Shown here piece by piece: positions 1-16,595 of a stretch of 42,259 nucleotides of DNA. The stretch is taken from NCBI GenBank assembly GCA_029945665.1, contig JAQSCZ010000022.1, positions 1 through 42,259 of the forward strand. The letters run 5' to 3'. The translations under genes and the position numbers were made by a program. This DNA comes from a bacterium (GTDB taxonomy: Bacteria > Bacteroidota > Bacteroidia > NS11-12g > UBA955). The notes beneath the pieces are model-generated. The model was not told the DNA's origin, did no database searches, and saw only the letters and a list, made by a program, of their open reading frames with translations. Within the stretch, counting starts at the first letter, position 1. Each line of letters starts with the position of its first letter.

Positions 1-66
1 GAGCTCACGAATGATTTATTGCCAAATCTTGGAAAAGTTCGGATCAGTGTGATATGGATTGACTAA
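1..66 (+). CDS. Possible 3' end of an upstream gene (partial)
   Basis: Frame 1 is open from the first base to a TAA at 64-66 and would encode about 21 residues ending in KVRISVIWID. The hydrophobic/basic mix is compatible with a protein C-terminus, and the next gene candidate begins 20 bp further on in the same direction. The piece is far too short to assign a family, and an open frame of this length can occur by chance. Function unknown. Confidence 0.25.
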   Translation, partial: ELTNDLLPNLGKVRISVIWID

Positions 67-85
67 CTCTAATCGATAAAGCATT

Positions 86-727
86 ATGAAAAATGAACCA
101 AACACTTACAGACATCAACCATCAACAAGAGAATACTTGATTGCATTGGCAAACTACCCGTACTTTACAAACTTACTAAACCCTGAAAACAAGCCTTACA
201 AACAATTATTTTATTGGTTGAGATAAAAGGAGACCTATTTCAGCGAAGAACGTAGGAAGTTACCAAATATTAAAGAAATCGGAGAAGAGCTAAAGCTAGA
301 TTCGTCAAAAGTAACAAAACACATTAAAATGATTTATGATGACATTCATGAATTAAATGATAAACAACCAAATCTGTTTTGCTCTGCCGGTCATGAGATT
401 TGTTTTCTTTCCTTCACTTATCTTGGGGATTATGCATATTTTAATTTAGGATTGAATACAATTCCAAGAAAAGGTGAATCATTCAGATTTCCATTTATCA
501 GACCGAGAAATGGAGGAGATGCATTTTATGTTCAAGAGGTGGCCCATTCGATTGAAAAAGGAAAGCAAGAAATAAGCATTTACCTAACTCAGGAATATCC
601 CAACACATATTTTCAATTATTAAAGGAAAAGGCCTATTTATGGAGGGATATCTCATTTTCAGAGTTGATAAGAGAAGGACCTTATGGTTTTGAGGACAAA
701 CTAATCAAATTGCATAACAGTTTATAA
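86..727 (+). pseudogene. Unrecognised HTH-like protein gene interrupted by one in-frame stop
   Basis: Reading from ATG 86 gives one continuous frame to TAA 725-727 except for a single TAA at 224-226 (codon 47). The frame is the same on both sides: residues before the stop (PSTREYLIALANYPYF) and after it (LPNIKEIGEELKLDSSKVTK) both look like normal protein. The full product would be 213 codons. The stretch just after the stop resembles a helix-turn-helix (EIGEELKLDSSKVTKHIKMI); the rest is mixed alpha/beta and I do not recognise it. A shorter product of 132 aa could start at ATG 329, but that would lose the HTH. Either the gene is a nonsense pseudogene, or the TAA is a one-base sequencing or culture mutation. 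It lies at the left edge of a defence-type island; no promoter was identified. Confidence 0.55.
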
Positions 728-922
728 TTCTTTATTACATTTATACTGTGTCAATAATTCCATCAAATTATTAGTTTCTAAATTTAACCTTGAATTTGTT
801 TTTAACAATTGCAGCATTCAAGATTTAATAAAGTTCACTCCAAAAATCCGGCTTTATTTATATTGTTAATAATTGTGTGCTATTTGTTGACAAAAACCGT
901 AGGTAGGCAAAATAATTAAAAC

Positions 923-930
923 TATATTTG
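923..930 (+). promoter_or_regulatory. Bacteroidetes-type -7 element (TATATTTG)
   Basis: TATATTTG matches the Bacteroidetes -7 consensus TAnnTTTG and lies 23 bp before the ATG of the XRE/ImmA gene. No TTTG at the usual 19-21 bp upstream spacing was found, so only the -7 half is supported. Because the downstream gene encodes an XRE repressor-like protein, autoregulation is plausible but not shown. Confidence 0.4.
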
Positions 931-953
931 TGTCAACCAATAAATAATTTGCC

Positions 954-2024
954 ATGAATACATTTAATCACAAAATAACATTGCTGAGAGATATCTCGGG
1001 CTTTTCAATGAATGAGCTAGCTGAAAAAATTGGTGTTTCAAGACAAGCGATTTTTAAATATGAGAATGGTGACATGAAACCCGACAGTACTATTCTTATA
1101 AAATTAGCAAATGCTTTAGGTGTATCAACTGATTACTTTTTTCAAAATAATTCTTCTGGTCCAACAATTAAGCTAGCCAGTATAGCCCACAGAGAAAAGA
1201 ACAAGGTTGAGGAGCAGGAATTTGAGAAGATAAAAAGAGAAACAATTGATTTCATATTGCGTTTAATTGATTTAGAGCAGATTGCTAATGCAAGACAGGA
1301 ATTTAGCAATCCCCTAAGTGAAATTAGTATCAAGTCAAATAATGATATAGAGAAAGCGACCAAAGTATTAAGGAAAAAATGGAGCTTGGGAACGATGCCC
1401 ATAGCAAATGTTGTTCAACTTTTGGAATCAAAAGGTATTAAAATTTTTGAAGTTGAAAAATCAAATAAGTTTGAGGGATTTGCTGCTTGGGTAGGTAGGA
1501 TTCCAATAATTGTAATTAATTCTTCGATTCAAGAAGTTACCAGAGTAAGATTTACAACCCTCCATGAATTAGGCCATATACTATTAGACTTTTGTGAAAG
1601 CTTAGATGAAATTAGCATTGAAAGATTATGTGATGCATTTTCGAGTGAGCTATTATTTCCAAAGGAATTAGTAGTGATAGAACTCGGTGATACTAGAACA
1701 AAAATTAGTGTTGAAGAGCTAATATATGTTAAAAAAAAGTATGGATTTTCGATACAGGCAATAATCTTTTCGGCACTTAATGCTAATGTTATTAGTAAGA
1801 CCACATATTTTTCATGGAAAAAGTTATACGACCAATGGTATAAAGAGGGCCGAGATTTTGGCAAATATGAAGCAAATGAATGTCCACAGCGATTTAATAT
1901 GCTCTTATACAATTGTATTTCAGAGGATAAAATATCAATCGGAAAAGCATCAATTTTATCTAAACAAGATGAGAGTGAATTAAAGAAAAAGTATCAACTA
2001 TTTGACAACCACATAACTGATTAA
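954..2024 (+). CDS. XRE-family HTH / ImmA-IrrE metallopeptidase regulator
   Basis: This 356-aa protein has an N-terminal XRE helix-turn-helix at about residues 8-63 (ELAEKIGVSRQAIFKYENGD). Its second half is a zinc-dependent ImmA/IrrE peptidase (DUF955): the HELGH motif gives H204, E205 and H208, and E223 in the following IERLCDAFSSELLFP segment fits the third zinc ligand. Proteins of this architecture are known from phages, integrative elements and toxin-antitoxin-like loci; ImmA-type peptidases cleave a partner repressor to switch on an element or stress response. It is followed after only 4 bp by a PIN-like gene, so the two are probably co-transcribed as a regulator/toxin-like pair. Which protein it cleaves cannot be seen. 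The start ATG 954 sits 23 bp from a TATATTTG -7 element. High confidence for the domains, moderate for the role. Confidence 0.9.
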   Translation: MNTFNHKITLLRDISGFSMNELAEKIGVSRQAIFKYENGDMKPDSTILIKLANALGVSTDYFFQNNSSGPTIKLASIAHREKNKVEEQEFEKIKRETIDFILRLIDLEQIANARQEFSNPLSEISIKSNNDIEKATKVLRKKWSLGTMPIANVVQLLESKGIKIFEVEKSNKFEGFAAWVGRIPIIVINSSIQEVTRVRFTTLHELGHILLDFCESLDEISIERLCDAFSSELLFPKELVVIELGDTRTKISVEELIYVKKKYGFSIQAIIFSALNANVISKTTYFSWKKLYDQWYKEGRDFGKYEANECPQRFNMLLYNCISEDKISIGKASILSKQDESELKKKYQLFDNHITD

Positions 2025-2028
2025 GAAA

Positions 2029-2415
2029 ATGAATATAATTTGTAGAGATTTAGAAGATTTTAAAAAACTGTATGACAGGAAAATAATTCAATCGGCCATG
2101 TTATTGGGCGACTCTTTTTCATCTACAGATTTTGTTATGGATTCGTATAAGAACATTATTAATGAAATCGATATTAGTTGCATGACAATTAAATCATTTC
2201 CCAAAAATGAATTACTTGAAATAAATAAATTACACAATAAATTTAGTCAAAATCTATCCTTTACTGATTGTTCAATTTTACTCCTAGCAATAAACTCTGG
2301 AGGGTATGTATTGTCAAATGAAAATATAATTGCAAGAATATGTGCAATGTACCAAATAGTTACCTACACAACAGAAAATTACAGTTTAAATATAAAATTA
2401 AAAAAAACAGGATAA
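2029..2415 (+). CDS. PIN-like domain protein, partner of the XRE/ImmA gene
   Basis: The 128-aa product starts 4 bp after the XRE/ImmA stop codon. Its second half has the signature order of PIN-domain ribonucleases: LSFTDCSILLLAI (D80 in the position of a conserved acidic residue) followed by GGYVLSNENIIARICAMYQI, which matches the family's vLt.D..l...a...gi segment. The last acidic position appears to be Asn/Glu (SNEN) rather than Asp, and the usual N-terminal Asp of the strand-1 motif is not obvious, so catalytic activity is uncertain. Homologous XRE-peptidase plus PIN pairs occur in mobile regions. It may be a toxin whose activity or level is controlled by the upstream metallopeptidase, or a degenerate PIN-fold regulatory partner. 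The gene is AT-rich like its neighbour. Confidence 0.6.
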   Translation: MNIICRDLEDFKKLYDRKIIQSAMLLGDSFSSTDFVMDSYKNIINEIDISCMTIKSFPKNELLEINKLHNKFSQNLSFTDCSILLLAINSGGYVLSNENIIARICAMYQIVTYTTENYSLNIKLKKTG

Positions 2416-2430
2416 TCATATAGCAAAAAA

Positions 2431-2447
2431 CCAGGCGGGGAGCCTGG
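2431..2447 (-). terminator. Hairpin terminator, U-tract on the minus strand
   Basis: CCAGGC (2431-2436), loop GGGGA, GCCTGG (2442-2447) forms a strong stem. Read on the minus strand it is followed by six T (the AAAAAA at 2425-2430), so it is a good rho-independent terminator for leftward transcription. On the plus strand the stem is followed by CTTAAAA, a weaker signal. It may still end the XRE/PIN transcript. Confidence 0.55.
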
Positions 2448-2448
2448 C

Positions 2449-2571
2449 TTAAAACTTCGTCGGTTTTAATTGTAATCTTTTATAGAAGGGCTCGCAACCC
2501 AAATCTATATCGGCAAAAATAGCTTTATTTTTGATATAAACAATAGCTTCATCCCCCCGCTTAAAAATTTC
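2449..2571 (-). pseudogene. Minus-strand C-terminal gene remnant ahead of the hairpin
   Basis: On the minus strand a frame open from 2571 to a TAA at 2449-2451 encodes about 40 residues including DEAIVYIKNKAIFADIDLG. It ends two bases from a hairpin with a T6 tract, exactly where a gene end would be expected. The frame is closed upstream by TAA (2572-2574) and no intact start is present, so it looks like the surviving 3' end of a leftward gene disrupted when the flanking operons were acquired. Family unknown; the call rests on the protein-like composition plus the terminator. Confidence 0.35.
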
Positions 2572-2684
2572 TTACATTAGAAGTATCTGTTAAAAGTTAG
2601 CAGATTAATTGTCATCCTTTAATGGTATTCCATTCAAAGTAGCTAGATAATTGCCTTGAAATAGGCAAAATTAAACAAGTCGTT

Positions 2685-2708
2685 AAACAAACAAACAAAC
2701 AAACAAAC
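2685..2708 (+). repeat. Six-unit AAAC tetranucleotide tract before bilA
   Basis: Six perfect copies of AAAC (2685-2708) continue into an A/C-only stretch (AAAAAC, AAAAAAAC) up to ATG 2726. It occupies the 5' leader of the Ubl-E2-DUB-E1 operon. Tetranucleotide tracts in promoters or leaders are a known substrate for slipped-strand phase variation. A-rich leaders are also normal at Bacteroidetes translation starts, so the tract could simply be a translation enhancer. Confidence 0.85.
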
Positions 2709-2725
2709 AAAAACAAAAAAACAAA

Positions 2726-3217
2726 ATGAATAAGTCTATTCAAATATTTCTCCATAGCGAGAATACAAAAGAACCCAAATTAGTGGATGTAGCAGAAAAT
2801 GCTACTGTTGATCAAATTTGCATGAAAAACAATGAAGTTTTTCACAATCCTGATGATTCGGAAGTTAAATTTCTAGTATTTAATGAGGACGAGGATGCCC
2901 CAATAGAAAAGAAAATGGGCAAAATCGAAAATGGCAAACGCCCAAGGATACATTGTCATAGATGTAGCAAGGTTGATGTCAGCGTTAATTATATGGATAA
3001 AACAATTTCCTTATCCTCTTCTCCTTCATTTACAATTCATAAAATTCGGTTTAAAGCCGCAAAAGAATTAAATATCAGTGAAGCAGATGCTGCAGATTTA
3101 GTAATTATGTTTAATAATGAGGTTTTAAGCGACACAAGTCATATTGGCTCGTATGTCAGTTACCCTGACTGTAAAATCAAGTTATCCTTAGTACCTGATA
3201 AACGTGTAAATGGATGA
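2726..3217 (+). CDS. bilA: Ubiquitin-like protein with two beta-grasp domains (BilA-like)
   Basis: The 163-aa product has two ubiquitin-like segments. Residues about 3-75 run from SIQIFLH through a KFLVFNEDED strand; residues about 83-158 run from VDVSVNYMDKTISLS through KIRFKAAKEL, AADLVIMFNNEVLSD and KIKLSLVPDK. They are joined by a conserved-looking linker, RIHCHRCSKV (C77 and C80). The chain ends in KRVNG with glycine as the last residue, as required of a conjugatable Ubl, so it may not need proteolytic maturation. Two fused Ubl folds next to E2, JAMM peptidase and E1 genes is the BilA architecture of the bacterial ISG15-like antiphage system, in which BilA is conjugated to a phage tail-fibre protein. 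The stop codon overlaps the next ATG by 4 bp (ATGA). Family assignment is by motif and gene order; no database search was possible. Confidence 0.85.
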   Translation: MNKSIQIFLHSENTKEPKLVDVAENATVDQICMKNNEVFHNPDDSEVKFLVFNEDEDAPIEKKMGKIENGKRPRIHCHRCSKVDVSVNYMDKTISLSSSPSFTIHKIRFKAAKELNISEADAADLVIMFNNEVLSDTSHIGSYVSYPDCKIKLSLVPDKRVNG

Positions 3218-3690
3218 GCATAGATTTATTAACGTTTAGAAAGGATTTAGAAGAAGCCAATTTTCAGATTGGAATTGACAAAGGCATGTGGAATGTTGCA
3301 GATGAAAATCTGCAATGCTCCACATGGCCTAAGGTCATAATTTGGATTAAAGCAGCTTCTAAGAATGATGGTCCGGAAAGGTACTATTTCAATTTTGACC
3401 TTACAGGATATCCGAATACAGCGCCAACATGCTGTCCTTGGAGTTCAGTAAAGGATGAAAGATTGCCGGATGAATTATGGCCAAAGGGAATCAAAGTTGT
3501 TTCTTCGGTATTTAATCCCGGTTGGAATAAGACTGCATTATATGCTCCATGTGATAGAGTAGCAATGATTGGGCATGAGAATTGGAAAAGTGAATTTCCG
3601 CATCTATGGTGGAATCCAAGTTTTACAATTGAAAAATATCTTAATTTTCTTTATAGAATACTTAACTCTTCAGATTATGCAAATTCCTAA
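3214..3690 (+). CDS. bilB: E2-like ubiquitin-conjugating protein (BilB-like)
   Basis: This 158-aa protein starts within the bilA stop (ATGA overlap). Its pattern fits bacterial E2 proteins of Ubl operons: a beta strand (YYFNFDLTGYP), a proline-rich turn (YPNTAPTCCPW), then NPGWNKTALYAPCDRVAM and a C-terminal helix (FTIEKYLNFLYRIL). C113 in LYAPCDR is the best candidate for the thioester cysteine, since it lies in the position where E2 folds place the active site after the beta sheet; C73 and C74 are less likely. The expected role is to take the activated Ubl from the E1 and pass it to a target without a recognisable E3. The last 14 bp overlap the bilC start. Moderately high confidence, based on neighbours as well as motifs. 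Confidence 0.8.
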   Translation: MSIDLLTFRKDLEEANFQIGIDKGMWNVADENLQCSTWPKVIIWIKAASKNDGPERYYFNFDLTGYPNTAPTCCPWSSVKDERLPDELWPKGIKVVSSVFNPGWNKTALYAPCDRVAMIGHENWKSEFPHLWWNPSFTIEKYLNFLYRILNSSDYANS

Positions 3691-4141
3691 ATTAATTATA
3701 CCTAAGAAGGTTTGGCAATGTCTCATTAAAGACTTAAAAGTTAAAGGCGAAGGTAAACGCGAAAGTGGAGCGTTCTTACTTGGGACGGATAATAACATTA
3801 CTGAGTACATATGTTATGATACACTTTATTCAAAGTCATTTGAAAGTGGAATAATCGAATTTGAAAGTATAGGATACATACCCTTATGGGAATACTGCAA
3901 GAGGAACAAGTTGAAGGTTCTTGCTGATGTGCATACACATCCCTATCAATGGACTGGCCAAAGCACTCTTGACAAAGAACATCCAATGATTACAGAAGTT
4001 GGCCATTTTGGCCTTATTGTGCCACAATATGCATCCAAAAGAAACCAAGATTTAACTGGTGTTGGAATTTACGAATATCTAGGGAAATATAAATGGAGAA
4101 CATGGAAAACTGAATCAGGAATTTTAACAATAAAATCCTAA
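3677..4141 (+). CDS. bilC: JAMM/MPN+ metalloprotease, deubiquitinase-like (BilC-like)
   Basis: Start ATG 3677 gives 154 aa (MQIPKLIIPK) and a 14-bp overlap with the E2 gene; a longer reading from 3569 would overlap by about 120 bp and is unlikely. The complete JAMM zinc motif is present: E29 in RESGAFLLG, then H86-x-H88 followed by seven residues, S96, two residues and D99 (VHTHPYQWTGQSTLD). This is the H-x-H-x7-S-x2-D signature of isopeptidases that remove ubiquitin. In Bil operons this enzyme removes BilA from conjugates or processes its C-terminus. Because this BilA already ends in glycine, deconjugation is the more likely job here. All catalytic residues are intact. Confidence 0.9.
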   Translation: MQIPKLIIPKKVWQCLIKDLKVKGEGKRESGAFLLGTDNNITEYICYDTLYSKSFESGIIEFESIGYIPLWEYCKRNKLKVLADVHTHPYQWTGQSTLDKEHPMITEVGHFGLIVPQYASKRNQDLTGVGIYEYLGKYKWRTWKTESGILTIKS

Positions 4142-4145
4142 AACA

Positions 4146-5492
4146 ATGGAAATTACAGAAAACAATGCAAACAGACTTGCATTTGCCCTTATAGAGAAAC
4201 ATCAATTGTCCTATTCTGATGCAGAAAGCAACCTTTTAAATTTAAATTTAAATCTACAATGTGGTGAAAAAATAAAGGAATCTATTCCATTACAAGCGGC
4301 GATTTTAACTGCTATAAATACTGGAAAAAGAGCATTTTTAGGAGGTGTATTTATTAATTTACCTGATAATACTCCTTGCCTTGTCAATTGGCCTCAGAAA
4401 CTAAACTTTAATGAGTTAGTTGAATTTTTAGGTGCAAAAATAAATAAGGAATTAGAATGCGACAATTTTTCATTGTACTTTGGATTGCCATGTATAAATA
4501 AAAATTCACTTAGAGTGGTTTGTGATAGTTGGAAAGGCGGGGTTTTAACACCTGATGATTCTTTTGTTTTTGAAGAAAATGGAAATCTCCCTTTAGGCGG
4601 AATATTAGCAGGAGCACTAGGTATTTGTCATGCTTTTTATAAGGCTTCCAATATTGATAATATTTGCGGAAATGAATCCTTTGGCTTGTCTTTACTTGAT
4701 TTGGATGGTGAATGGAAAACTTGTCAAAATGAAGAACCAGAAATAATTTACCTTCCAAAAAACTATTGGATTTTAGGTTTAGGGCATTTAGGGCAAGCAT
4801 ACCTATGGAGTATAGGTTTATTACCATACCAAATGCATAAAAAGGTCAATTTTATTCTTCAGGATTATGATATTGTTAATGAAGCAAACTATTCTGCTGG
4901 CTTATTGTGTGAAATGGCCCACGACAAATTAAAAAAAACGAGAGTATGTGCTAACTGGCTTGAAGAAAGAGGGTTCATTACTTCAATTTCTGAAAGGATG
5001 TTTAATTCCAATACTGTTCGTATAGAGGATGAGCCATTTATAGCGTTATGCGGATTTGATTCTGGTAAATCAAGACTTGCACTTGAAAACGCTGGATTTG
5101 ATTTAGTTGTTGAAGCCGGATTAGGAGGAAGACTTTCTAATTTTGATACTATTGTTATTCATACTTTTCCAAATGGTTCAAAACAACCTAATGAAATATG
5201 GACTTCTGACACTGCTGTCAATATAAATCCAAGCCTCTTAAATGCTTTTGAAGGCAACGAAATTTGCGGTATCTTACCAATTAAAATTGCTAGTAAATCT
5301 ATTTCAGCTTCATTTGTAGGCGCATTTACTGGGGCAATTGTTATTGCAGAATTATTGAAAGGATTGCATGGAAAAAAACGAATAGATAAAGCTGTGATTT
5401 CAATGAGGAATCTGGATTATAAGAAAATTATTTATAATGAGATTAACTATACTACAGAAATGGCTAAAAATGGGTTTGAAGAGAATAAATAA
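4146..5492 (+). CDS. bilD: E1-like Ubl-activating enzyme (ThiF/E1 fold, BilD-like)
   Basis: The 448-aa protein begins 4 bp after bilC. Residues about 200-440 form the ThiF/E1 adenylation domain. They contain an ATP-binding GLGHLG loop (211-216), the acidic pair in LQDYDIVNEANYSAG (D240, D242, N245/N248), and a late cysteine in EGNEICGILPIK (C374) that is a candidate catalytic thioester residue, followed by the hydrophobic SASFVGAFTGAIVIAELL helix. The N-terminal 200 residues are unlike canonical E1 parts and resemble the extra N-terminal region of bacterial E1s in Ubl operons; their function is unknown. Expected reaction: ATP-dependent adenylation of the BilA C-terminal glycine and transfer to the E2. 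It closes the operon; 139 bp separate it from hsdR. Confidence 0.85.
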   Translation: MEITENNANRLAFALIEKHQLSYSDAESNLLNLNLNLQCGEKIKESIPLQAAILTAINTGKRAFLGGVFINLPDNTPCLVNWPQKLNFNELVEFLGAKINKELECDNFSLYFGLPCINKNSLRVVCDSWKGGVLTPDDSFVFEENGNLPLGGILAGALGICHAFYKASNIDNICGNESFGLSLLDLDGEWKTCQNEEPEIIYLPKNYWILGLGHLGQAYLWSIGLLPYQMHKKVNFILQDYDIVNEANYSAGLLCEMAHDKLKKTRVCANWLEERGFITSISERMFNSNTVRIEDEPFIALCGFDSGKSRLALENAGFDLVVEAGLGGRLSNFDTIVIHTFPNGSKQPNEIWTSDTAVNINPSLLNAFEGNEICGILPIKIASKSISASFVGAFTGAIVIAELLKGLHGKKRIDKAVISMRNLDYKKIIYNEINYTTEMAKNGFEENK

Positions 5493-5631
5493 ACATAATG
5501 ACTAATTAGCTTTTTTGAATATCCCTAATTTCGGAAAGCTATAACAAGTTTTGAATAAGTGAATAATTTGGCAATCAGACTGAAAGCCTCTATTTTTGAA
5601 GAAAAAGAAAGATTTGTCTTTTAATTAATCA

Positions 5632-8046
5632 ATGATAGATAAAAAAAGCCTCTCAGAACGAGATATCTGCACTAAGTTTATTACACCTGCCGTTGAAAAA
5701 TCTGGATGGAATACACATACCCAGTTATTAGAGGAGGTTTCCTTCACTGATGGCAAAATATATGTAAGGGGTAAGCTAACTGCCAGAGGCAATAAGAAAC
5801 GGGCTGATTATATCCTTTATTACAAGCCCAACATTCCTATTGCAATTATTGAAGCCAAAGATAATAAGCATTCTGTAAGAGCAGGAATTCAACAGGCTTT
5901 GGACTATGCGCAAATATTAGATATTCCTTGTGTTTTCAGTAGCAATGGTGATGGTTTTTTATTTCATGATCGAACCGCAACAGACGGAAACATAGAAACA
6001 GAAATTGGAATTGATGACTTCCCTACTCCTGAACAACTTTGGGAAAAATACAAAAAGTACAAAGGTATTTCGACACCAACAGCTGAAAAGATTTCTTCAC
6101 AAGATTATTACTTTGACGGAACAAGCCGAAAACCAAGATATTACCAACAAATTGCTGTAAACAGAACTGTTGAAGCCATTGCAAACGGACAAAACCGAAT
6201 TATTTTGGTGATGGCAACAGGAACAGGAAAAACCTATACGGCTTTTCAAATCATTCACCGACTTTGGAAAAGCGGAGCAAAAAAACGGATTCTGTTTCTT
6301 GCCGACCGCAACGCTTTGATTGACCAAACTCGAAGAGGCGACTTCAAACATTTTAAAGATAAAATGACGGTGGTAAAACACCGCATGATTGATAAGAGTT
6401 ATGAGATTTATTTGGCTTTGTATCAAGGCTTGTCAGGCACAGATGAAGATGCTAATGTGTACAAACAGTTTTCGCCTAACTTTTTTGACTTGATTGTTAT
6501 TGACGAGTGCCACAGAGGAAGTGCCAAAGAAGATAGCAGTTGGAGAGAAATTTTATCGTACTTCAAAAATGCTACACATATTGGTTTGACAGCCACTCCA
6601 AAAGAGACCAAAGAAACCAGCAATACTGAATATTTTGGAGACCCTATTTATACGTATTCTTTGAAACAAGGTATTGACGATGGTTTCCTTGCTCCATATC
6701 GTGTGGTAAGAATTGGTTTAAATGTAGATGCCGAAGGTTGGCGGCCAGACAGAGGAAAAACCGATAAAGAAGGCAACGCAATTGAAGATAGAATATACAA
6801 CCGCAAAGATTTTGACCGCAATTTGGTTATTGAAGAACGGACAGAATTAGTTGCAAAAAAACTCACAGAGTTTTTAAAAGGTTACGACCGCTTTGCAAAA
6901 ACAATTGTTTTTTGTGTAGACATTGACCATGCTGAACGCATGAGAACTGCACTTGCAAAACAAAATGCTGATTTGGTTGCTGATAATTACAAATACATCA
7001 TGCAAATAACTGGCGACAATGACGAAGGTAAACGTGAGTTAGACAACTTCATAAATCCCGAAGAAAAATATCCTGTAATTGCCACTACTTCCGAATTGAT
7101 GACAACAGGCGTAGATGCACAAACGTGTAAAGTAATTGTATTGGATGCCAACATAAATTCAATGACCAAGTTCAAACAAATCATTGGACGTGGAACTCGT
7201 ATCAATGAAGAATTTGGGAAACTCTTTTTTACCATTTTAGATTTTAGAAATGCAACAGATTTGTTTGCAGATAAAGATTTTGATGGTGACCCAATTCGTG
7301 TAAAACCAGTTTCGCAAGAAGAAGATTTATCATTGGTAGTTATCGAAGAAGAAGAAAACACAATTAAAGTTTTAGATGAAGCAACAGGCGAAGAAATTGT
7401 TTTTGAAAAAGCGAAAATCCGATATCCTGATGGTTCAAAATTAAACGGCAATTGGGTTGCAAGAGAACCAGATGCAAAAAGAGAAAAGATATATGTAAAC
7501 GGTGTTGATGTTTCCGTTTTAGTAAGCCGAGAAATGTATTTCGACCAACATGGCAAGCCTATTACAACAAGTTTAAAAGACCATACAAAAGAAATCATCA
7601 AAGAAAAATTTGGTTCGTTGGATGCCTTTTTAAATAAATGGAATGCCACCGATCGCAAAGAAGCAATAATTACTGAATTGCAAGAACAAGGTGTAATGGT
7701 GGAAGCCCTTTATGAGTCTGTAGACAAGCAAGTAGATTTATTTGACTTAATTTGTCATGTCGCATTTGATCAACCACCTATGACCCGTAAGGAAAGAGCA
7801 AACAATGTAAGGAAGCGAAACTACTTTACAAAATATAGCGAACAAGCAAAAAAAGTTTTAGAAGCATTGCTAGACAAATATGCAGACGAAGGTATTAGTA
7901 ATATTGAAAGTATTGAAGTGTTAAGAGTAAATCCATTTGACGAATTTGGTTCACCGACTGAAATTATCCATGAGTTTGGAAACAAAGAGAAATATTTGCA
8001 AGCAGTAAAAGAATTGGAGAAGGAATTATATAAAGTAGCAGAATGA
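5632..8046 (+). CDS. hsdR: Type I restriction enzyme, R subunit (HsdR)
   Basis: The 804-aa product is the motor/nuclease subunit of a type I restriction system. The N-terminal PD-(D/E)XK nuclease shows D59 and the E74-A-K76 motif (ADYILYY... IIEAKD). It is followed by the superfamily 2 helicase motifs ATGTGKT (195-201), DECH (291-294), GLTATPKE (318-325) and a motif VI segment, IIGRGTRINEEFGKLFF (about 510-526). The C-terminal part (about 560-800) is helical and would contact the methyltransferase. It cleaves unmodified DNA after ATP-driven translocation. It ends with a 4-bp ATGA overlap with the PD-(D/E)XK gene downstream, so the operon is translationally coupled. It appears intact. Confidence 0.95.
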   Translation: MIDKKSLSERDICTKFITPAVEKSGWNTHTQLLEEVSFTDGKIYVRGKLTARGNKKRADYILYYKPNIPIAIIEAKDNKHSVRAGIQQALDYAQILDIPCVFSSNGDGFLFHDRTATDGNIETEIGIDDFPTPEQLWEKYKKYKGISTPTAEKISSQDYYFDGTSRKPRYYQQIAVNRTVEAIANGQNRIILVMATGTGKTYTAFQIIHRLWKSGAKKRILFLADRNALIDQTRRGDFKHFKDKMTVVKHRMIDKSYEIYLALYQGLSGTDEDANVYKQFSPNFFDLIVIDECHRGSAKEDSSWREILSYFKNATHIGLTATPKETKETSNTEYFGDPIYTYSLKQGIDDGFLAPYRVVRIGLNVDAEGWRPDRGKTDKEGNAIEDRIYNRKDFDRNLVIEERTELVAKKLTEFLKGYDRFAKTIVFCVDIDHAERMRTALAKQNADLVADNYKYIMQITGDNDEGKRELDNFINPEEKYPVIATTSELMTTGVDAQTCKVIVLDANINSMTKFKQIIGRGTRINEEFGKLFFTILDFRNATDLFADKDFDGDPIRVKPVSQEEDLSLVVIEEEENTIKVLDEATGEEIVFEKAKIRYPDGSKLNGNWVAREPDAKREKIYVNGVDVSVLVSREMYFDQHGKPITTSLKDHTKEIIKEKFGSLDAFLNKWNATDRKEAIITELQEQGVMVEALYESVDKQVDLFDLICHVAFDQPPMTRKERANNVRKRNYFTKYSEQAKKVLEALLDKYADEGISNIESIEVLRVNPFDEFGSPTEIIHEFGNKEKYLQAVKELEKELYKVAE

Positions 8047-9230
8047 ATGAAGCATCGAAAGAAATTAGTGAATCAGATTTGATTAATTTATTAAATGATA
8101 TTCACTTTGATCGAATTGAACTTGGGTTAAGAAAAGTTAATTTCTTTGATATCCTTCAGATATCGAAAGCAGAGATTAGGCACTCGAATTTTTTAGGATG
8201 GTTATTTGACCCCAATGAAGCACATGGTCTTAAGGAATTAGTTTTGAAGAGAACACTAAGGGATATTTTTTCAGATGAAAGAGCGGTTGGGTTGAATGCC
8301 CTCGATGCAGATTCAATTGATTATAGAAATGTGGAAATTAAGCGCGAATGGCAAAATATTGATTTGTTGATTCTGATAGATGGAAAGATAATTTGCATAG
8401 AAAACAAAGTTGATTCAAAGGAACATTCAAATCAATTAAATAGATATAAGAAGATTGTCCAAGATAATTTTCCTAAACGACAAATTGTATTTGTATTTTT
8501 AACTCCACAAGGTGATTTGCCTCAAGATGTCAATATTGGTTACATTCCTTATTCTTATGTAAGATTTAATGAGAATCTTGAAAAGTTGATGGAAATTTAC
8601 GGAAATACTCTGAATCAAAAGATTCAAAATTATATTAACGATTACATTTCAGTATTAAAAAGAAATATTATGAAAAATGATTATTTAAATGAACTTGCTA
8701 TAAAATTATATAAAAGTCATAAAACCACGCTAAATTTTATTTTTGAAAATATGCCTGATTTAGAGCAGGAAATTCACGAATTGTTTGAGCAAAAAGTTAT
8801 TGAATCAGGTTGGGTTTTAGGCAGCAGAAACAAGGGTTATGTAAGATTTTTGACGCCATCATTAAATAATATAATACCGCGATACGATTCAAATAATGGA
8901 TGGCCTTTAAGAGAGGCATTTTTATTTGAAATTGACTTCTTCTGGACAAGTAAGAATGCATTAAATATTAAAACCATTATATCTCCCGGGGAGGATACTA
9001 AACGGGATATCTTAAAAGATGTATTATCAAAAGTTGAAGGGGCACAAAAGCCTTATGGCGAAAAATGGATAAGCCATTTTATTTTAAAGAAGAAATTCGA
9101 ATTTGAGAAAATGAATGAACTTGACGAAATGGAAAGGATGACTAAAATAAATTCGATTTGGTCTGATGTTGAAGAATTGGTAAATAAGGTTGAAACAGCT
9201 ATATTAAATGATGGGAGAATGTCAAAATAA
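8043..9230 (+). CDS. PD-(D/E)XK nuclease-family protein inserted in the hsd operon
   Basis: The 395-aa protein has a PD-(D/E)XK core near its N-terminus: RHSNFLGWLFDPNEAHGL (46-63), an acidic strand (D107 in NIDLLILIDG), then E120-N-K122 in IICIENKVDS and Q131 (SNQLNRY). The opening HSxFLxWLxDPxxxHGL segment is the hallmark of the PDDEXK_4-type family (PF14281-like), often found near restriction systems. The remaining 260 residues are alpha/beta and unrecognised. The gene overlaps hsdR by 4 bp and stops 3 bp before hsdM, so it is built into the operon. Possible roles are an extra nuclease, an anti-restriction safeguard or an abortive effector; none can be chosen from sequence. Its base composition looks more AT-rich than hsdR and hsdM, which suggests later insertion. 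Confidence 0.85.
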   Translation: MNEASKEISESDLINLLNDIHFDRIELGLRKVNFFDILQISKAEIRHSNFLGWLFDPNEAHGLKELVLKRTLRDIFSDERAVGLNALDADSIDYRNVEIKREWQNIDLLILIDGKIICIENKVDSKEHSNQLNRYKKIVQDNFPKRQIVFVFLTPQGDLPQDVNIGYIPYSYVRFNENLEKLMEIYGNTLNQKIQNYINDYISVLKRNIMKNDYLNELAIKLYKSHKTTLNFIFENMPDLEQEIHELFEQKVIESGWVLGSRNKGYVRFLTPSLNNIIPRYDSNNGWPLREAFLFEIDFFWTSKNALNIKTIISPGEDTKRDILKDVLSKVEGAQKPYGEKWISHFILKKKFEFEKMNELDEMERMTKINSIWSDVEELVNKVETAILNDGRMSK

Positions 9231-9233
9231 CAA

Positions 9234-10670
9234 ATGAGCAACATTTCAGGTATCATAAAAAGCATACAAAATATCATGTGGCAGGATACTGGCCTCAATG
9301 GTGATGCACAAAGGATAGAACAATTGGGTTGGATGCTTTTTTTGAAAATATTTTCAGATAAAGACAAAGAATTGGAATTACTAGACGACAAATACACATC
9401 GCCTATTCCCGATAAATTCCATTGGGTAAAAGAAAAAGGCAATTGGGCAGGTGATGATGAAGGAATGACAGGCGATGAATTGTTAGAGTTTGTGGATAGA
9501 CAATTGTTTCCTGCATTACGCAATTTAGATTTAAGCACAGGGAACCAACGAGCCGTGATTGTTCGTGAAGTATTTGAAGGCAACAACAACTATATGAAAA
9601 GCGGGATCAATATTCGTAAGGTGTTGAATAAGCTGAACGAAATTGATTTTAACATTGCCAAAGACCGCCACGCTTTTGGAGAACTGTACGAAACCATTTT
9701 AAAAGAATTACAAAGTGCTGGCAAGAGTGGTGAGTTTTATACACCAAGAGCCATTACACAATTTATTACAGAAACCATTAATCCGCAATTGCGTGAAAAA
9801 ATATTAGACCCTGCTTGCGGAACAGGTGGCTATTTAACATGTGCCATTGAACATTTAAAAGCGCAAGCCAAAAATGTAGAACAGCGCAAAAGCATAGAAC
9901 AAAACATTGCAGGCTGGGAATACAAACCTTTGCCGTATTTGTTGGCAACTACCAATTTAATTTTACACGACATTGAAATTCCCAGCATTAAATTTGGTGA
10001 TGCTTTAGATCAGCCATTAAGCAACTTTACCGAAAAGCACCGAGTAAATGTAATATTGGCAAACCCTCCATTTGGTGGCATTGTAGCCAACAACAATGAA
10101 ACTAATTTTCCGCAGACCTACCGTACAAAAGAAAGTGCCGACTTGTTTTTAATCTTAATGATTCATTTGCTAAAGCAAGACGGACGAGCAGGAATTGTTT
10201 TGCCCGATGGCAGTTTAACAGGCGATGGTGTAAAACAACGCATACGCCAAAAATTATTGGAAGATTGTAACCTGCACACCATTATCCGTTTACCAAATTC
10301 GGTTTTCCAACCTTATGCAACGGTTGCAACCAACTTGTTGTTTTTTGACAAAGGCAAACCAACAAAGGACATTTGGTATTACGAACACCGTATGCCCGAA
10401 GGATATAAAGCCTACAACAAAACAAGGCCGATACAAGCCAAAGAATTTGAACCAATTACAAAATGGTGGAATAAACGCAAAGAGAGTGATATTGCCTGGA
10501 AAGTAAATATTAAAACCATTATTGAAAGAGGTTATGATTTGGATATAAAAAACCCAACAAAGCCTGAGGAAGAAAAAGAATATAATAGTGCAGAACTAAT
10601 GGAGATGCTAAATGCTTCTTTTGATAAAAGCCATAAATTATTGAACCAACTAAAACAAGCTGTGAAATGA
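9234..10670 (+). CDS. hsdM: Type I restriction-modification DNA methyltransferase (HsdM)
   Basis: This is a 478-aa N6-adenine methyltransferase. The N-terminal HsdM domain (about 5-140) precedes the catalytic domain, where the SAM-binding motif DPACGTGGY (192-200) and the catalytic NPPF (277-280) are intact. The GEFYTPRAITQFI segment (167-179) typical of HsdM lies between them. It methylates the recognition site chosen by HsdS and joins HsdR for restriction. It starts 3 bp after the nuclease gene and overlaps hsdS by 4 bp (ATGA). Length is typical for the family. Confidence 0.96.
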   Translation: MSNISGIIKSIQNIMWQDTGLNGDAQRIEQLGWMLFLKIFSDKDKELELLDDKYTSPIPDKFHWVKEKGNWAGDDEGMTGDELLEFVDRQLFPALRNLDLSTGNQRAVIVREVFEGNNNYMKSGINIRKVLNKLNEIDFNIAKDRHAFGELYETILKELQSAGKSGEFYTPRAITQFITETINPQLREKILDPACGTGGYLTCAIEHLKAQAKNVEQRKSIEQNIAGWEYKPLPYLLATTNLILHDIEIPSIKFGDALDQPLSNFTEKHRVNVILANPPFGGIVANNNETNFPQTYRTKESADLFLILMIHLLKQDGRAGIVLPDGSLTGDGVKQRIRQKLLEDCNLHTIIRLPNSVFQPYATVATNLLFFDKGKPTKDIWYYEHRMPEGYKAYNKTRPIQAKEFEPITKWWNKRKESDIAWKVNIKTIIERGYDLDIKNPTKPEEEKEYNSAELMEMLNASFDKSHKLLNQLKQAVK

Positions 10671-11998
10671 GTTGGAAGAGAGTAAAATTGGGAGATATTT
10701 TAACCGAAAGTAAAATCGTTTCAGAATATCCAAATCCAGACCGCAGAATAACTGTAAGGTTGAAAGTGCTAGGTGTTGAGAAAAGAGGATTAGAAAATGA
10801 AGTTGAAGGAGCAACTAAACAATATGTTAGAAAAACAGGACAGTTCATTTATGGGAAACAAAATTTTCATAAGGGAGCATTTGGAATTGTACCTCCCGAA
10901 TTAGATGGATTTGAAAGTAGTTCTGATTTGCCTGCATTTGACGTTGATAAATCTTGTTTGCCAGAATTTATTTTTTACTTTTTTAAACAAGGTAATTTCT
11001 ACTTAGAACTTTCTAAAATTGCTTCTGGCGTTGCAACACAACGCATTAATACAACTCAACTATTTGAATTAGAATTATTACTACCTGATATTAAAACTCA
11101 AAGACAATTAATTTTAAATATTCAGTTATTAGAGAAAAATGGTTCGCAGATTTCCACCGAACTCACCCACCAACTCTCTTTAGTAAAAAAACTCCGTCAG
11201 CAATTATTGCAAGATGCTGTGCAAGGGAAATTGGTGGAGCAAAATAAAAAAGACGAACCAGCAAGCGAATTGCTTAAAAAGATAAAAGCAGAAAAAGAAA
11301 AACTCATTGCAGAAAAGAAGCTAAAAAAAGAAAAGGAATTAGCACCCATCAAACCCGAGGAAATCCCTTTTGACATACCCGAAAGTTGGGTTTGGTGCAG
11401 ATTGGGGGAAATGTTTGAAATTGTTAGAGGCTCATCTCCTAGACCAAAGGGAGACCCAAAATATTGGTCAAAAGAAAGTACACCCTTTCATTGGATTACT
11501 ATTGCAGATTTTACTCCTTATGGAATTAATGGAAATCTTTGCGACACTAAAGGATTTCTTACCGAAGAAGGCTCAAAAAAAAGTCGAATAGTGAAAATAG
11601 GCGATTTGTTAGTTGCCTGTAGTGGTGTTGGAAGCGTAGGACGTTCAATTCATACTAGTATTGATGGATTCATTTATGATGGCATATTAGCAATAAGAAG
11701 TATACCCAATGAATCACTAAAAGAATTAGTCAAACATTTTTTAAAATATAAAGAGGAACAAATTTATTCAGTTGCTTCTGGTGCAAACTGGCTTAATATC
11801 AATATTGAGATTTTAAGTAATTATATTTTTCCGCTGCCACCATTGTCCGAACAAAAACGTATACTTGAAAAATTAGATGAATTGATGCAGTATTGCAATG
11901 AGTTGGAAGCAAGTATTAAAGAAAGTGAAACACAAAATGAAAAATTATTGCAACAGGTTTTGAGAGAGGCTTTGAGGAAAGAATTAAAATCTGTTTAA
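10667..11998 (+). CDS. hsdS: Type I restriction specificity subunit (HsdS)
   Basis: The 443-aa specificity protein has two target-recognition domains. TRD1 (about 1-145) ends in GVATQRINTTQLFELELLLP and is followed by a first helical conserved region (about 146-190, LRQQLLQDAVQGKLVEQ). A Lys/Glu-rich linker (about 205-232) leads to TRD2 (about 238-390), which starts IPESWVWCRLGEMFEIVRG and ends with SNYIFPLPPLSEQKRI. A second helical region follows (about 395-440). Two TRDs imply a bipartite target; the site cannot be predicted from sequence. TRD1 lacks the usual opening IPxxWxxxxL seen in TRD2, so the halves are of different origin. It is followed 4 bp later by a DUF3800 gene. Confidence 0.93.
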   Translation: MSWKRVKLGDILTESKIVSEYPNPDRRITVRLKVLGVEKRGLENEVEGATKQYVRKTGQFIYGKQNFHKGAFGIVPPELDGFESSSDLPAFDVDKSCLPEFIFYFFKQGNFYLELSKIASGVATQRINTTQLFELELLLPDIKTQRQLILNIQLLEKNGSQISTELTHQLSLVKKLRQQLLQDAVQGKLVEQNKKDEPASELLKKIKAEKEKLIAEKKLKKEKELAPIKPEEIPFDIPESWVWCRLGEMFEIVRGSSPRPKGDPKYWSKESTPFHWITIADFTPYGINGNLCDTKGFLTEEGSKKSRIVKIGDLLVACSGVGSVGRSIHTSIDGFIYDGILAIRSIPNESLKELVKHFLKYKEEQIYSVASGANWLNINIEILSNYIFPLPPLSEQKRILEKLDELMQYCNELEASIKESETQNEKLLQQVLREALRKELKSV

Positions 11999-12002
11999 TA
12001 CT

Positions 12003-13166
12003 ATGACAAACAAGGAAGTTGCACATATATTTATTGATGAATTTGGAACCAATGTTTATATTGCTGACAACCCAACTGTTACAAGTCATTTTGTTTATGC
12101 TTCTTTAATTATTCCAGAATCAAAACTTGCAACAGCACGAAAAATTAGACAAGATTTAGCAGATAAATACCATCAGGGAACTGCATTTTCTTCCAAAGAA
12201 TTTGACAAAAAAGATAAAAAAAAATCACTTCAAAAAAGAATTGATTTTTTAAATGACCTAGTTAAAATGTTGGATTTTACAGTTGATATTCTTGTTATTG
12301 ACAAAAAAGCAATTGATGGAGATGGTCTTAAATTTAAAGAGATATTCTACAAGTATTTTCAAGGCTTGTTTGTAAAAAAGTATAATAATAGATTTGAATC
12401 TTTTCACATTAATGCGGATAATATTGGATCCACCGAGTATGGAATAGAACTTTCGAAATATATTAATAAAAACAACATTGAACGTGACTTATTTAATCCT
12501 GAAAGATTTTTCAGATTAAAAGATGATAAAATTGAAGAACCTATTCTTCAATTAATTGATATGATTTGTGGCTCTCTAGGAAAATTTTATTCTTCAAGCC
12601 ATTTTAATCAACATTCTCAAAATATTTACGACATTTTACATACTAGAATATCATGTGAGTACTTTCCAAAGTTCGAGGTGGCTAACACATTCAAATTGAG
12701 TAATATTGAATTGGATAATAAAATTAGAGAAATTTCATTAGCATCCGTTGATCCAGAAAAGATTAAATTGAAAGATAATCAAATAGCAAAAAGACTTGTT
12801 GAATATCTACAATCTCACTACAAATCAAATCCAAAAAGATTTATTCAGACATATGAAATTCAAGAGTATTTGAGAAATTTTGAACCTGATATTAGTACAG
12901 AAAAAATCAGACGATTGGTTCGAGATTTAAGATATGAAGGCGCATTTATTATAAGTGTTTCACAGCAAAATGGGTATAAAATTGCCTTTGATTCTTCTGA
13001 TATTTTTGAGTATTTTACTCATTATTCAAATTATTTTATTCCTATGCTTCAAAAAATAAAAATCATTAATCAAGAAATAGCAAAAGATTCGTTTAATGAA
13101 TTTAATATACTTGAGAAGGATGAAACTTTTATACTTTTCAAGAAACTCTTGTCAGTTATCGATTAA
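12003..13166 (+). CDS. DUF3800 protein with a C-terminal winged-helix domain
   Basis: The 387-aa product opens with FIDEFGT (D12, E13) and has QLIDMICG (D186). These are the spaced acidic motifs of DUF3800, a family proposed to have an RNase H-like nuclease fold and common in restriction and phage-defence neighbourhoods. Residues about 255-332 look like a winged helix: a helix (IAKRLVEYLQSHY), a recognition-helix segment (ISTEKIRRLVRDLRYEG) and a beta wing (AFIISVSQQNGYKIAF). The gene starts 4 bp after hsdS and is probably co-transcribed with the restriction operon. A nuclease guided by its own DNA-binding module is a reasonable inference; activity is unproven. Confidence 0.75.
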   Translation: MTNKEVAHIFIDEFGTNVYIADNPTVTSHFVYASLIIPESKLATARKIRQDLADKYHQGTAFSSKEFDKKDKKKSLQKRIDFLNDLVKMLDFTVDILVIDKKAIDGDGLKFKEIFYKYFQGLFVKKYNNRFESFHINADNIGSTEYGIELSKYINKNNIERDLFNPERFFRLKDDKIEEPILQLIDMICGSLGKFYSSSHFNQHSQNIYDILHTRISCEYFPKFEVANTFKLSNIELDNKIREISLASVDPEKIKLKDNQIAKRLVEYLQSHYKSNPKRFIQTYEIQEYLRNFEPDISTEKIRRLVRDLRYEGAFIISVSQQNGYKIAFDSSDIFEYFTHYSNYFIPMLQKIKIINQEIAKDSFNEFNILEKDETFILFKKLLSVID

Positions 13167-13215
13167 TTGCTTTTAAGTTAAAATAGAATATCTAAAAATA
13201 AATTAAAATATTGTA

Positions 13216-14157
13216 ATGGTAAATGTCAAAATAGAACATATTTCAGTTGAATCTGAATCAATTAATCCCGCTTTATCAATTAACATATTAGTTGAATGTA
13301 ATTTTTTAACAGAATCTCCTATCTCGGTCAGTGGCACTTTATCTGTTGATGGAAAGGTTGTTTCATATTTGACTGAATTGAAATATTTTGACCGAGGCTA
13401 CACAGAATTAGCAATTTTAGGAGAAGAACAAGTTGTAAAAATAAACTCTGGGAATAGATTAAATATTTATCAAACTAATTTAACAGCTTTACTTTCACCG
13501 ATTGCAATTGATTGGATTGAGAAATCAAGAGAAAAAGAAAGAGAAAAATCTGTCAATCTAAGTTTTGAATTTGCAGTTAGATATATTGAAATGACTGCAA
13601 AATCGAATAGACTTTATGGCACGAATCCCCCTTTTCAAAGAATTAAACAATCAAAGGAATTCAGAAGCTATATTATTAGCCAAAGTGATTGGATAAATAG
13701 ATTTTACAATTATATAGGTGCAGGCAAGTTTATACTAGTCGAATTACCTTTAATCGGAGAAGCATCGACTATTCCTTTATGGAAGGACCTTACAAATGAA
13801 TTATATGGTAATATTCAAGAAATGGATTCCAAAGTAAAAATCGGAGATTGGCAGTCAGTTATTGTGGTTTCGAGAAAATTCTTTGAAAATATAAAAATTG
13901 GAGATAACAAAGCTGGAAACAAAAAATTTAGAGATGATTTTAACCAAAAGTTAAAGCAATTAAATCATGATGATGAAGGCATAAAAAATCTTCATGATGC
14001 AATTTGGCAATTGTTTGAGTTTTCCTCAAAATTTATTCATACCAAAAATAAAACTGGAGAGCTTAAACAGATTCCCACTGCTAATAAAGAAGATGCCTAT
14101 CTTGTTTATTCACTTTCTATATGTCTGTATAATATCTTGATTAGAAATATTAAATAA
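13216..14157 (+). CDS. Unrecognised protein, beta-rich N-terminus and helical C-terminus
   Basis: This 313-aa protein lies 49 bp after the DUF3800 gene on the same strand. Residues 1-110 alternate short beta strands (ILVECNFLTESPISVSGTL, VVSYLTELKYF). A charged helix (SREKEREKS) leads into a mostly helical half. The segment ISQSDWINRFYNYIG, then a GDWQSVIVVSRKFFENI helix and a terminal LFEFSSKFIHTKNKTGE helix resemble the layout of HEPN-like helical domains, but I see no clean R-x4-6-H motif and do not claim it. There is no signal peptide or membrane segment, so it is probably cytoplasmic. Context suggests a defence-associated gene. Confidence 0.6.
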   Translation: MVNVKIEHISVESESINPALSINILVECNFLTESPISVSGTLSVDGKVVSYLTELKYFDRGYTELAILGEEQVVKINSGNRLNIYQTNLTALLSPIAIDWIEKSREKEREKSVNLSFEFAVRYIEMTAKSNRLYGTNPPFQRIKQSKEFRSYIISQSDWINRFYNYIGAGKFILVELPLIGEASTIPLWKDLTNELYGNIQEMDSKVKIGDWQSVIVVSRKFFENIKIGDNKAGNKKFRDDFNQKLKQLNHDDEGIKNLHDAIWQLFEFSSKFIHTKNKTGELKQIPTANKEDAYLVYSLSICLYNILIRNIK

Positions 14158-14174
14158 CCTCTTAATAAATTAAA

Positions 14175-14762
14175 ATGGAAATTGAAATTAAATCGGAATT
14201 GTTGTCAATTTTTAACATCCTTTATAATGCAGGTCAGATAAAAATTCCAGACTCAAATATAATACAGGAATGGAATTATGTTTTAAAACTTTGGATTGAA
14301 GATCACGAGATGACACTTTTTGCTAGAAAGGGCGGTGAGACAAGGGGTTCAATTGTAAATAACAATTTCAATAGACGAATTATAACTACGGATAATACTC
14401 CCGCACATTGGGTTTTTAAAACAATAGTAATGGATAAAAGCAGACCGAATAAAGACTTTATTAAAAAGACAATTCAAGAAAATAATTTTCCTATTTCTTT
14501 TGTTAAAAAAAGATCCGACATTCACCTTATAGGCAAAATGGTCGATCCTAGCATAAGAAGCCTTAATGTTGAATGGAAACTTGCCCATATCAATAAAATT
14601 GCATTATCACGTTCTACAAACAAAACAATTAGTGATTATGAAGAACATCATTTTAAATTTCTTTCATTAGACAATATATATCTAATAGACAAAAGGTATT
14701 CTGGAATTGCAGAAATTGCAGAGTTTAATGAGATAGTTAAAAATCATAAAAAAGCTCTCTAG
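14175..14762 (+). CDS. Unrecognised 195-aa protein, last gene of the plus-strand island block
   Basis: It starts 17 bp after the previous gene and so is probably in the same transcript. The 195-aa product is basic and mixed alpha/beta: an N-terminal helix (LLSIFNILYNAG), a central KKTIQENNFPISFVKKRSD segment, a WKLAHINKIALSRSTN stretch and a helical end. No known catalytic motif or membrane segment is visible. It ends 22 bp before the convergent minus-strand HTH gene. It could form a two-gene module with the preceding gene; this is inference from spacing only. Confidence 0.55.
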   Translation: MEIEIKSELLSIFNILYNAGQIKIPDSNIIQEWNYVLKLWIEDHEMTLFARKGGETRGSIVNNNFNRRIITTDNTPAHWVFKTIVMDKSRPNKDFIKKTIQENNFPISFVKKRSDIHLIGKMVDPSIRSLNVEWKLAHINKIALSRSTNKTISDYEEHHFKFLSLDNIYLIDKRYSGIAEIAEFNEIVKNHKKAL

Positions 14763-14784
14763 CAGAAAAGTTCTAATGTGCTTT

Positions 14785-15111: not shown

Positions 15112-15154
15112 AAAAAAATTTGATTTAATCTAGTGAAAATAAAATTTGCTTATG

Positions 15155-16264: not shown

Positions 16265-16429
16265 AGCATTATAAATATTAAAATCAATTTTATTGCAATA
16301 GCTAGACCAAATCAACTTAAATGTCAAATTGTCTCTCAATGGAAATTTATTTTCAAAGGTAATAGACGAGTTTATTGAATTTAAACTATTCATCCCCTTA
16401 AACATCCCCTCATAAAAATTAATTTAATT

Positions 16430-16464: not shown

Positions 16465-16468
16465 ACAG

Positions 16469-16542
16469 TGATCCCAACAGGATTCGAACCTGTGACCTAC
16501 AGATTAGAAATCTGTTGCTCTATCCAGCTGAGCTATAGGACC
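16469..16542 (-). tRNA. tRNA-Arg (anticodon TCT)
   Basis: Read on the minus strand it begins GGTCCTATAGCTCAGC, has an anticodon arm ACAGA-TTTCTAA-TCTGT (anticodon TCT), the T-loop GGTTCGAATCC and a 3' acceptor strand TGGGATC with discriminator A. CCA is not encoded. The acceptor stem pairs with two G-T wobbles. Its 3' end faces the defence island, the orientation usual for tRNA genes used as integration targets. Confidence 0.95.
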
Positions 16543-16555
16543 ATGCTCTTAAATT

Positions 16556-16589: not shown

Positions 16590-16595
16590 CTGTTG

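Follow-up and report, generated by a model that had tools for sequence, protein, structure and literature searches.

Does a contig of the Bacteroidota encode a complete, eukaryote-like ubiquitin conjugation pathway? The question is raised by four adjacent genes at positions 2726-5492 of contig JAQSCZ010000022.1 (assembly GCA_029945665.1, lineage UBA955), which a sequence-only reading had taken for an operon of the bacterial ISG15-like (Bil) antiphage system, composed of a ubiquitin-like protein (Ubl), an E2, a JAMM deconjugase and an E1. The stretch analysed here, hereafter the window, is the entire contig (42,259 bases) of an assembly with 126 contigs. We find that the profile matches, the order of the genes, their catalytic residues, the predicted folds and the phylogeny all uphold the Bil assignment, and consider it very likely that 2726-5492 is an intact Bil operon of the phage-defence type. 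The implied novelty is not supported, as Bil is already in print, including a Bil-like system in Bacteroides (PMC12135933, PMC11364771 and PMC12948488, the last also covering Bil function), and BilD is present in 16 other Bacteroidota rows of our tree. The window operon is thus a distant, divergent member of a described family, in an ordinary defence-island setting.

The four genes form an intact Bil operon

The four-gene Ubl-E2-JAMM-E1 operon was confirmed by its open reading frames (ORFs), by their order and by the PADLOC models:

2726..3217, + strand: bilA, two-domain ubiquitin-like protein, 163 amino acids (PADLOC BilA 3.2e-34; AlphaFold2 (AF2); Foldseek; residue conservation)
3214..3690, + strand: bilB, E2-like (Pfam DUF7665), 158 amino acids, putative catalytic C113 (PADLOC BilB 1.9e-50; PF24702 6.1e-41; AF2; fold search)
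3677..4141, + strand: bilC, JAMM/JAB deconjugase, 154 amino acids (PADLOC BilC 4.7e-50; sequence match to solved BilC chain 8tyx_B)
4146..5492, + strand: bilD, E1-like activating enzyme, 448 amino acids (PADLOC BilD 5.8e-123; conserved columns; BilD tree)

The genes are adjacent, on the same strand and in the Bil order Ubl, E2, JAMM, E1. They had been described as tightly overlapping, which is correct for bilA/bilB (4 nucleotides (nt), ATGA) and bilB/bilC (14 nt) but not for bilC and bilD, which are separated by 4 nt. The proposed comparison with profile hidden Markov models of BilA-D gave, for each product, a match to its own PADLOC model (E-values of 3e-34, 2e-50, 5e-50 and 6e-123 after rounding) covering most of the protein, and no other PADLOC family matched any of the four. 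NCBIfam offers no named family for these proteins, with a match at chance level only for BilA, and promoter-like sites around the operon number 9 versus 14.1 in shuffles, i.e. fewer than in shuffled sequence. All four frames are open, with the conserved residues intact. The residues named from the sequence are all in place, namely the terminal Gly163 of BilA, the LYAPCDR motif of BilB, which contains C113, the complete JAMM motif of BilC (E29, H86, H88, S96, D99), and GLGHLG (211-216), D240 and C374 of BilD, which also carries K264 and D305.

Relatives of BilD were collected by an alignment-guided profile scan of GTDB representatives, in which 184 relatives are encoded and the best 80 of 184 were used; it replaced a single-protein genome scan that returned 27 pattern matches and no relative. 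Fourteen of 36 plasmid records with relatives and 2 viral contigs were added, and phage records gave no BilD match. Note that the alignment against which loci were picked for similarity has the window at its head, and the sample leans towards the window's kin for that reason. All four Bil genes are present in 92 of 98 loci (L001, L002 and L003 excluded), the incomplete ones being L034, L044, L064 and L086 together with L004 and L005, which hold another operon kind. The residue counts leave out L001 and L003 (the window's own genome), L002 (the same place as L022), L004 and L005, and for BilD also L061; all include the window. On this basis, position 163 of BilA is Gly in 87 of 89 distinct rows and a gap in the remaining 2, the JAMM residues of BilC read E/H/H/S/D in 93/93 distinct sequences, and C374 and D240 of BilD are Cys and Asp in 96/96 rows, not dereplicated. 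C113 of BilB is Cys in 79/91 distinct rows; next to it, D114 and R115 are kept in 93/95 rows, and H121 and W124 in 94/95 (L061 is misplaced there). By these counts, the presence of the named residues in the window is not a matter of chance.

In a BilD tree of 97 rows, the window and all 16 rows labelled Bacteroidota lie on one side of a branch (96, starred), and a starred set of 7 rows unites the window with Chitinophagaceae and further rows from the Bacteroidota. The tree was built by a quick method that flagged the window among rows of unusual letter make-up. The examined Bacteroidota Bil copies thus form one clade. The distribution of Bil is patchy: BilB was found in 1 of 70 genomes searched in the window's family, its own, and BilD matches at E 1e-10 occur in 4 of 395 genomes of the phylum, which are its own, that of Limnovirga (L002/L022) and two whose matches are weak and of another kind.

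Predicted folds of BilA and BilB

The sequence-only reading had staked itself on two folds, two beta-grasp domains in BilA and an E2 fold in BilB. Both proteins were modelled with AF2 from alignments of 46 rows, the window plus 45 of 72 (BilA) or 45 of 74 (BilB) candidate relatives hand-picked for spread. Neither model contradicts the reading.

AF2 and Foldseek give BilA two beta-grasp domains resembling linear di-ubiquitin and ISG15. The model has a mean predicted local distance difference test score (pLDDT) of 92.1, with two units whose strands and helices span 4-78 and 83-157. Foldseek ranks linear di-ubiquitin first (E 7.6e-9), with ISG15 entries from 6e-7; the template-modelling (TM) scores of the listed rows, normalised to BilA, are 0.37-0.44, and this loose superposition of the whole molecule indicates that its two domains are set at a different angle. 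Human and mouse ISG15 and linear di-ubiquitin therefore share with BilA the tandem beta-grasp domains and the C-terminal Gly, but differ from it in interdomain angle and are only 8-20% identical in the two-domain rows. For the C-terminal domain, the top-ranked alignment is to the solved bacterial Ubl chain 8tyx_A (Z 11.8, root mean square deviation (rmsd) 3.2 over 81), which is tied within 1 Z with FAT10, archaeal ubiquitin, human ubiquitin and ISG15. Note that this second structural alignment covered mainly 81-163; for the N-terminal domain, the evidence consists of the AF2 model together with those Foldseek rows that span the full length. In sequence, BilA has a sub-threshold Pfam ubiquitin match over 91-154 (0.022); a single-sequence search of solved structures found no convincing match for it, and a profile search matched polyubiquitin (best 60 of 175 rows). 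The 88 distinct BilA ORFs from relatives divide into 56 with a terminal Gly, 29 that continue past the conserved Gly and 3 fusions to BilB, tails being recognised by the last letter of the ORF.

For BilB, the AF2 model (mean pLDDT 94.2) points to an E2 fold. The bacterial E2 8tz0_C comes first in both rankings (Foldseek E 4.8e-3, TM 0.54; VIA Z 10.9, rmsd 3.8 over 131), tied with eukaryotic E2s. Pfam assigns the protein to DUF7665 (6.1e-41), and a sequence search of solved structures returned no convincing match. We infer C113 to be the catalytic residue. The CEHH bacterial E2 has Glu, His and His at +6, +8 and +13 from the Cys (PMC11354881), a spacing that BilB does not follow, reading C113, I119, H121, S126 when counted by spacing alone without gaps; since that review itself calls its protein BilB, the motif may be unable to separate the families. 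A search of the window's own genome with Pfam Prok-E2_B matched nothing anywhere, controls included, and is hence uninformative.

BilC matches the solved BilC chain 8tyx_B in sequence, at 1.6e-4 as a single sequence and 1.4e-14 as a profile, and has a sub-threshold Pfam Prok-JAB match (0.03). The BilD profile gives weak matches to NEDD8 E1, ThiF and MccB (E 0.06-0.5), and its sequence search of solved structures returned no convincing match. The literature names a catalytic Cys417 (PMC11354881); the conserved cysteine of the window BilD is C374.

Comparison with tested and solved systems

The ISG15-like system of Collimonas sp. OK412, which reportedly conjugates ubiquitin-like proteins to the phage's central tail fibre (PMC11364771), was among the loci returned by the genome scan (L080); it served as positive control and matches the same four PADLOC models at 1e-51, 8e-62, 6e-68 and 2e-171. 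It has the same order A-B-C-D, a 163-residue BilA ending in Gly163, Cys113 in BilB, a JAMM BilC and an E1 BilD; in contrast, identity to the window is only 24.4, 35.3, 33.8 and 34.6% for A to D, and its BilD lies in another part of the tree. Common descent of the window operon with this experimentally tested one is supported by the PADLOC models, the identity and the BilD tree. Closer are the Bil loci of the Chitinophagaceae Limnovirga soli (L022), Flavihumibacter (L020) and Flavipsychrobacter (L025), with the same four genes at 36-46% (A), 51-56% (B), 53-58% (C) and 50% (D) identity and a place beside the window in the starred 7-row BilD set; ten neighbour proteins of the window were queried against these three Bil loci and none was found.

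With the solved bacterial E1-E2-Ubl and Ubl-deubiquitinase complexes (8tyx, 8tyy, 8tyz, 8tz0), BilB and the C-terminal half of BilA match by fold and BilC by sequence; BilA, BilB and BilD have no sequence-level match to these entries among the matches listed (for the BilA profile, the best 60 of 175). The solved Ubl chain used in the alignment is 82-83 residues long and has one domain, in contrast to the two-domain BilA of the window.

How far the operon can be read as antiphage conjugation

From the anatomy of the genes and from published work on Collimonas and related systems, we infer the chemistry, target and antiphage effect of the window operon. BilA would first be adenylated by BilD at its C-terminal Gly163 and kept as a thioester on C374 of BilD, from which it would pass to C113 of BilB; BilB would then attach it through an isopeptide bond to lysines of proteins during infection, and BilC would remove or recycle it. 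By analogy with Collimonas, the likely outcome would be progeny phage that either lack tails or have their central tail fibre blocked by BilA. In the case of another BilA, the glycine is reported to become exposed through BilC (PMC11354881). As the window BilA already ends at Gly163, BilC probably acts here in deconjugation and not as a protease strictly needed for maturation. Most likely, the window Bil tags phage proteins with its ubiquitin-like protein.

Several observations weigh against this account. BilD is without any Pfam family match even at E 10, its identity as an E1 resting on PADLOC, the motifs and the weak profile matches. No single BilB Foldseek match reaches E 0.001 or better, so that the case for an E2 fold comes from the agreement among the listed matches and not from one strong match. 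In 12 of 91 distinct BilB, position 113 is not a cysteine but L, V, F, W, S, I or A, for which reason the E2 step may not be essential everywhere. Since the tested Collimonas proteins are just 24-35% identical to those of the window, the conjugation target may also differ from theirs. Finally, deleting a Bil-like system in Bacteroides jmh43 left assembly of the hankyphage unaffected, a result for one prophage only (PMC12135933).

These last two points also favour a working BilA conjugation whose main substrate is something other than the tail fibre, such as other phage or host proteins, or that serves in a stress response. Such a function, which overlaps with the Bil reading, is possible, if on balance unlikely: defence genes flank the operon on both sides, and Collimonas sets a precedent for modification of the tail fibre (PMC11364771). 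That the operon is a decaying or silent remnant would agree with its accessory nature and with BilB being found in the window's genome alone among the 70 of its family; we regard this as highly improbable, given four open frames that overlap or lie 4 nt apart and retain their conserved residues.

Operons of another kind have E1, E2 and JAMM parts in common with Bil, and the weak ThiF and MccB matches of the BilD profile could suggest a sulfur-carrier ThiF/MoeB operon, the Cap2/Cap3 set of a type II cyclic-oligonucleotide-based antiphage signalling system (CBASS), or Bub. The contrast locus L005, an E2/JAMM/E1 locus of another kind, matches BilD as the only Bil model, and weakly (5e-15); both it and L004 may be Bub-like. 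Bub operons are ubiquitination-like with similar regulators and are treated as separate from Bil (PMC13373217). In the window, by contrast, each gene has one Bil model (E 3e-34 to 6e-123) and no other PADLOC family, and the Ubl has two domains. Type II CBASS has a fused E1-E2 protein, Cap2, and a CD-NTase; here E1 and E2 are separate genes, and PADLOC found no CD-NTase among sixteen window proteins scanned. Membership of the operon in any of these other kinds is thus extremely unlikely, and the Bil assignment stands: with the window, bacterial ubiquitin-like conjugation gains a complete and divergent example from the Bacteroidota.

Variation within the Bil family

The window operon itself is of modest interest, and it is the family-level side observations that deserve a specialist's attention. 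Three of them can be put to the test: two BilA cysteines that co-vary, an E2 cysteine lost repeatedly with E1 and JAMM residues intact, and a clade of Ubl-E2 fusions with an internal reactive glycine.

At the domain junction of BilA, C80 is kept or replaced together with C149 (3170-3172), and H76 and H78, often conserved too, lie beside C80 (window 2951-2965 for the three). Both cysteines are present in 84 of 89 distinct sequences (window included) and neither in 4 (L009, L013, L019, L073), the remaining one being cut by a contig end. At least 3 changes are counted on the BilD tree with L098 excluded, the L098 sequence having both. Note that L009 and L019 have cysteines one and three places before the aligned position, so that their status depends on the alignment. 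In the AF2 model, C80 and C149 each precede a strand of the C-terminal domain (83-89 and 150-157), with H76 and H78 just before C80; the strands corresponding to these two run side by side in ubiquitin-like folds. The four residues could possibly form a metal site, a bond or mere packing.

The BilB sequences without C113 are those of L014, L016, L017, L018, L025 (Leu), L032, L033, L035, L038, L039, L066 and L094, which requires at least 8 changes on the BilD tree; L014, L017, L032 and L094 have no cysteine throughout the aligned BilB. Some of these losses may be recent or errors, since L039 and L041 are otherwise near-identical but have Ser and Cys there, respectively; several sequences come from metagenome bins. 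A bolder proposal is that the BilA junction site is a metal or redox clamp or switch for conjugation and that some members of the family can do without the E2 thioester, E1 passing BilA on with BilB as a cysteine-free adaptor. We hold this combination to be doubtful; if true, the window operon would be a suitable complete specimen for both.

In three Bacteroidota loci, BilA and BilB form one ORF in which the glycine is internal (L038:5580-6515, L051:5599-6534, L076:5577-6536); together with L086, where the contig breaks off ahead of A and B, these loci make up one starred BilD clade. BilC and BilD are likewise one ORF in Dawidia soli (L066:6512-8428). Two IMG/VR viral contigs (L100, L101) carry Bil operons, and L100 may be a provirus or a mislabelled host stretch because its BilD is identical to that of Neoroseomonas marina (L065). 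We met no mention of the fusions, the BilA cysteine pair or the BilB cysteine loss in the literature on Bil generally, seen in part, with the primary Bil papers outside it and with no search aimed at the fusions or the pair, and we do not claim them as unpublished.

Neighbouring genes and the border of an accessory island

The proposal that the operon lies in a defence island is borne out by an RmrA-like gene upstream and type I restriction-modification genes downstream:

954..2024, + strand: helix-turn-helix (HTH) and ImmA/IrrE (M78) protein, RmrA-like (PADLOC RmrA 8.8e-46, capP 6.7e-18, capH 1.5e-11; Pfam HTH_3, Peptidase_M78)
2029..2415, + strand: small PIN-like protein directly 3' of the RmrA-like gene (weak PIN match, E 0.033, below the Pfam cut-off; no PADLOC match)
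2685..2725, + strand: (AAAC) tandem repeat, ~10.8 imperfect units, ending right at the bilA start codon (sequence)
5632-8046, + strand: HsdR, type I restriction-modification
8043-9230, + strand: PD-(D/E)XK protein between HsdR and HsdM (PADLOC candidate PDC-S26, 3e-120)
9234-10670, + strand: HsdM, type I restriction-modification
10667-11998, + strand: HsdS, type I restriction-modification
16468..16542, - strand: tRNA-Arg(tct), its 3' end being the island border (tRNA gene and comparison with relatives)
16595-16669: tRNA-Pro
17124-17211: tRNA-Ser

The genes at 954-2415 may be a Rosmerta-like toxin-antitoxin pair (scheme of an HTH-ImmA RmrA and a toxin RmrT), in which the PIN-like protein is possibly the toxin partner of the RmrA-like gene, its own match to PIN being weak. 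Within the stretches examined, a relative of the RmrA-like gene lies near Bil in 2 loci only, L016 and L066. A role of this HTH-M78 gene as a CapH/CapP-like DNA-damage regulator of Bil was left as a lead, as one ORF and 310 nt intervene and the best match is RmrA. The copy number of the (AAAC) repeat could vary and alter expression; no such repeat was seen in the 60 bases before bilA of ten relatives (27 bases only for L024). Past the restriction-modification set come a DUF3800 protein, two proteins without Pfam match and a DUF4238 protein.

The border of the island was examined with stretches of 0.6-18 kb from ten relatives. Six of the ten contain the tRNA-Arg gene, one of which, L124, is uninformative as its contig ends with it, and the stretches of L116, L121, L123 and L125 do not contain it. 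In the five informative relatives (L117-L120, L122), DNA similarity ends at window 16462-16468, the 3' end of tRNA-Arg. Fifteen island proteins, BilA-BilD included, were not found in the ten stretches, and the AAA gene following the tRNA cluster is present in 10/10 of them and in 15/17 genomes of the genus, its own included. Since similarity stops at tRNA-Arg and the island proteins are not found in these stretches, 1-16467 is an accessory island, whose other end lies beyond the contig. The repeats listed for 1-17300 include no repeated tRNA-Arg end as an attachment site, and no integrase was recognised among the island proteins scanned, the genome's eight integrase matches (seven over the cut-off) being on other contigs.

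What follows the tRNA-Arg differs between relatives: in L117 (1084-2379), a tyrosine integrase starts ~50 bases past it, with a phage tail gene behind, in L118 (12425-14128) a Gabija GajA gene starts 1.3 kb past it, and in L119 it is followed by an aconitase gene. The tRNA block itself also varies, with 10 kb between tRNA-Ser and tRNA-Pro in L118 and an inverted tRNA-Ser in L122. Within the genus, the cluster of Arg, Pro and Ser tRNA genes has the appearance of an integration hotspot.

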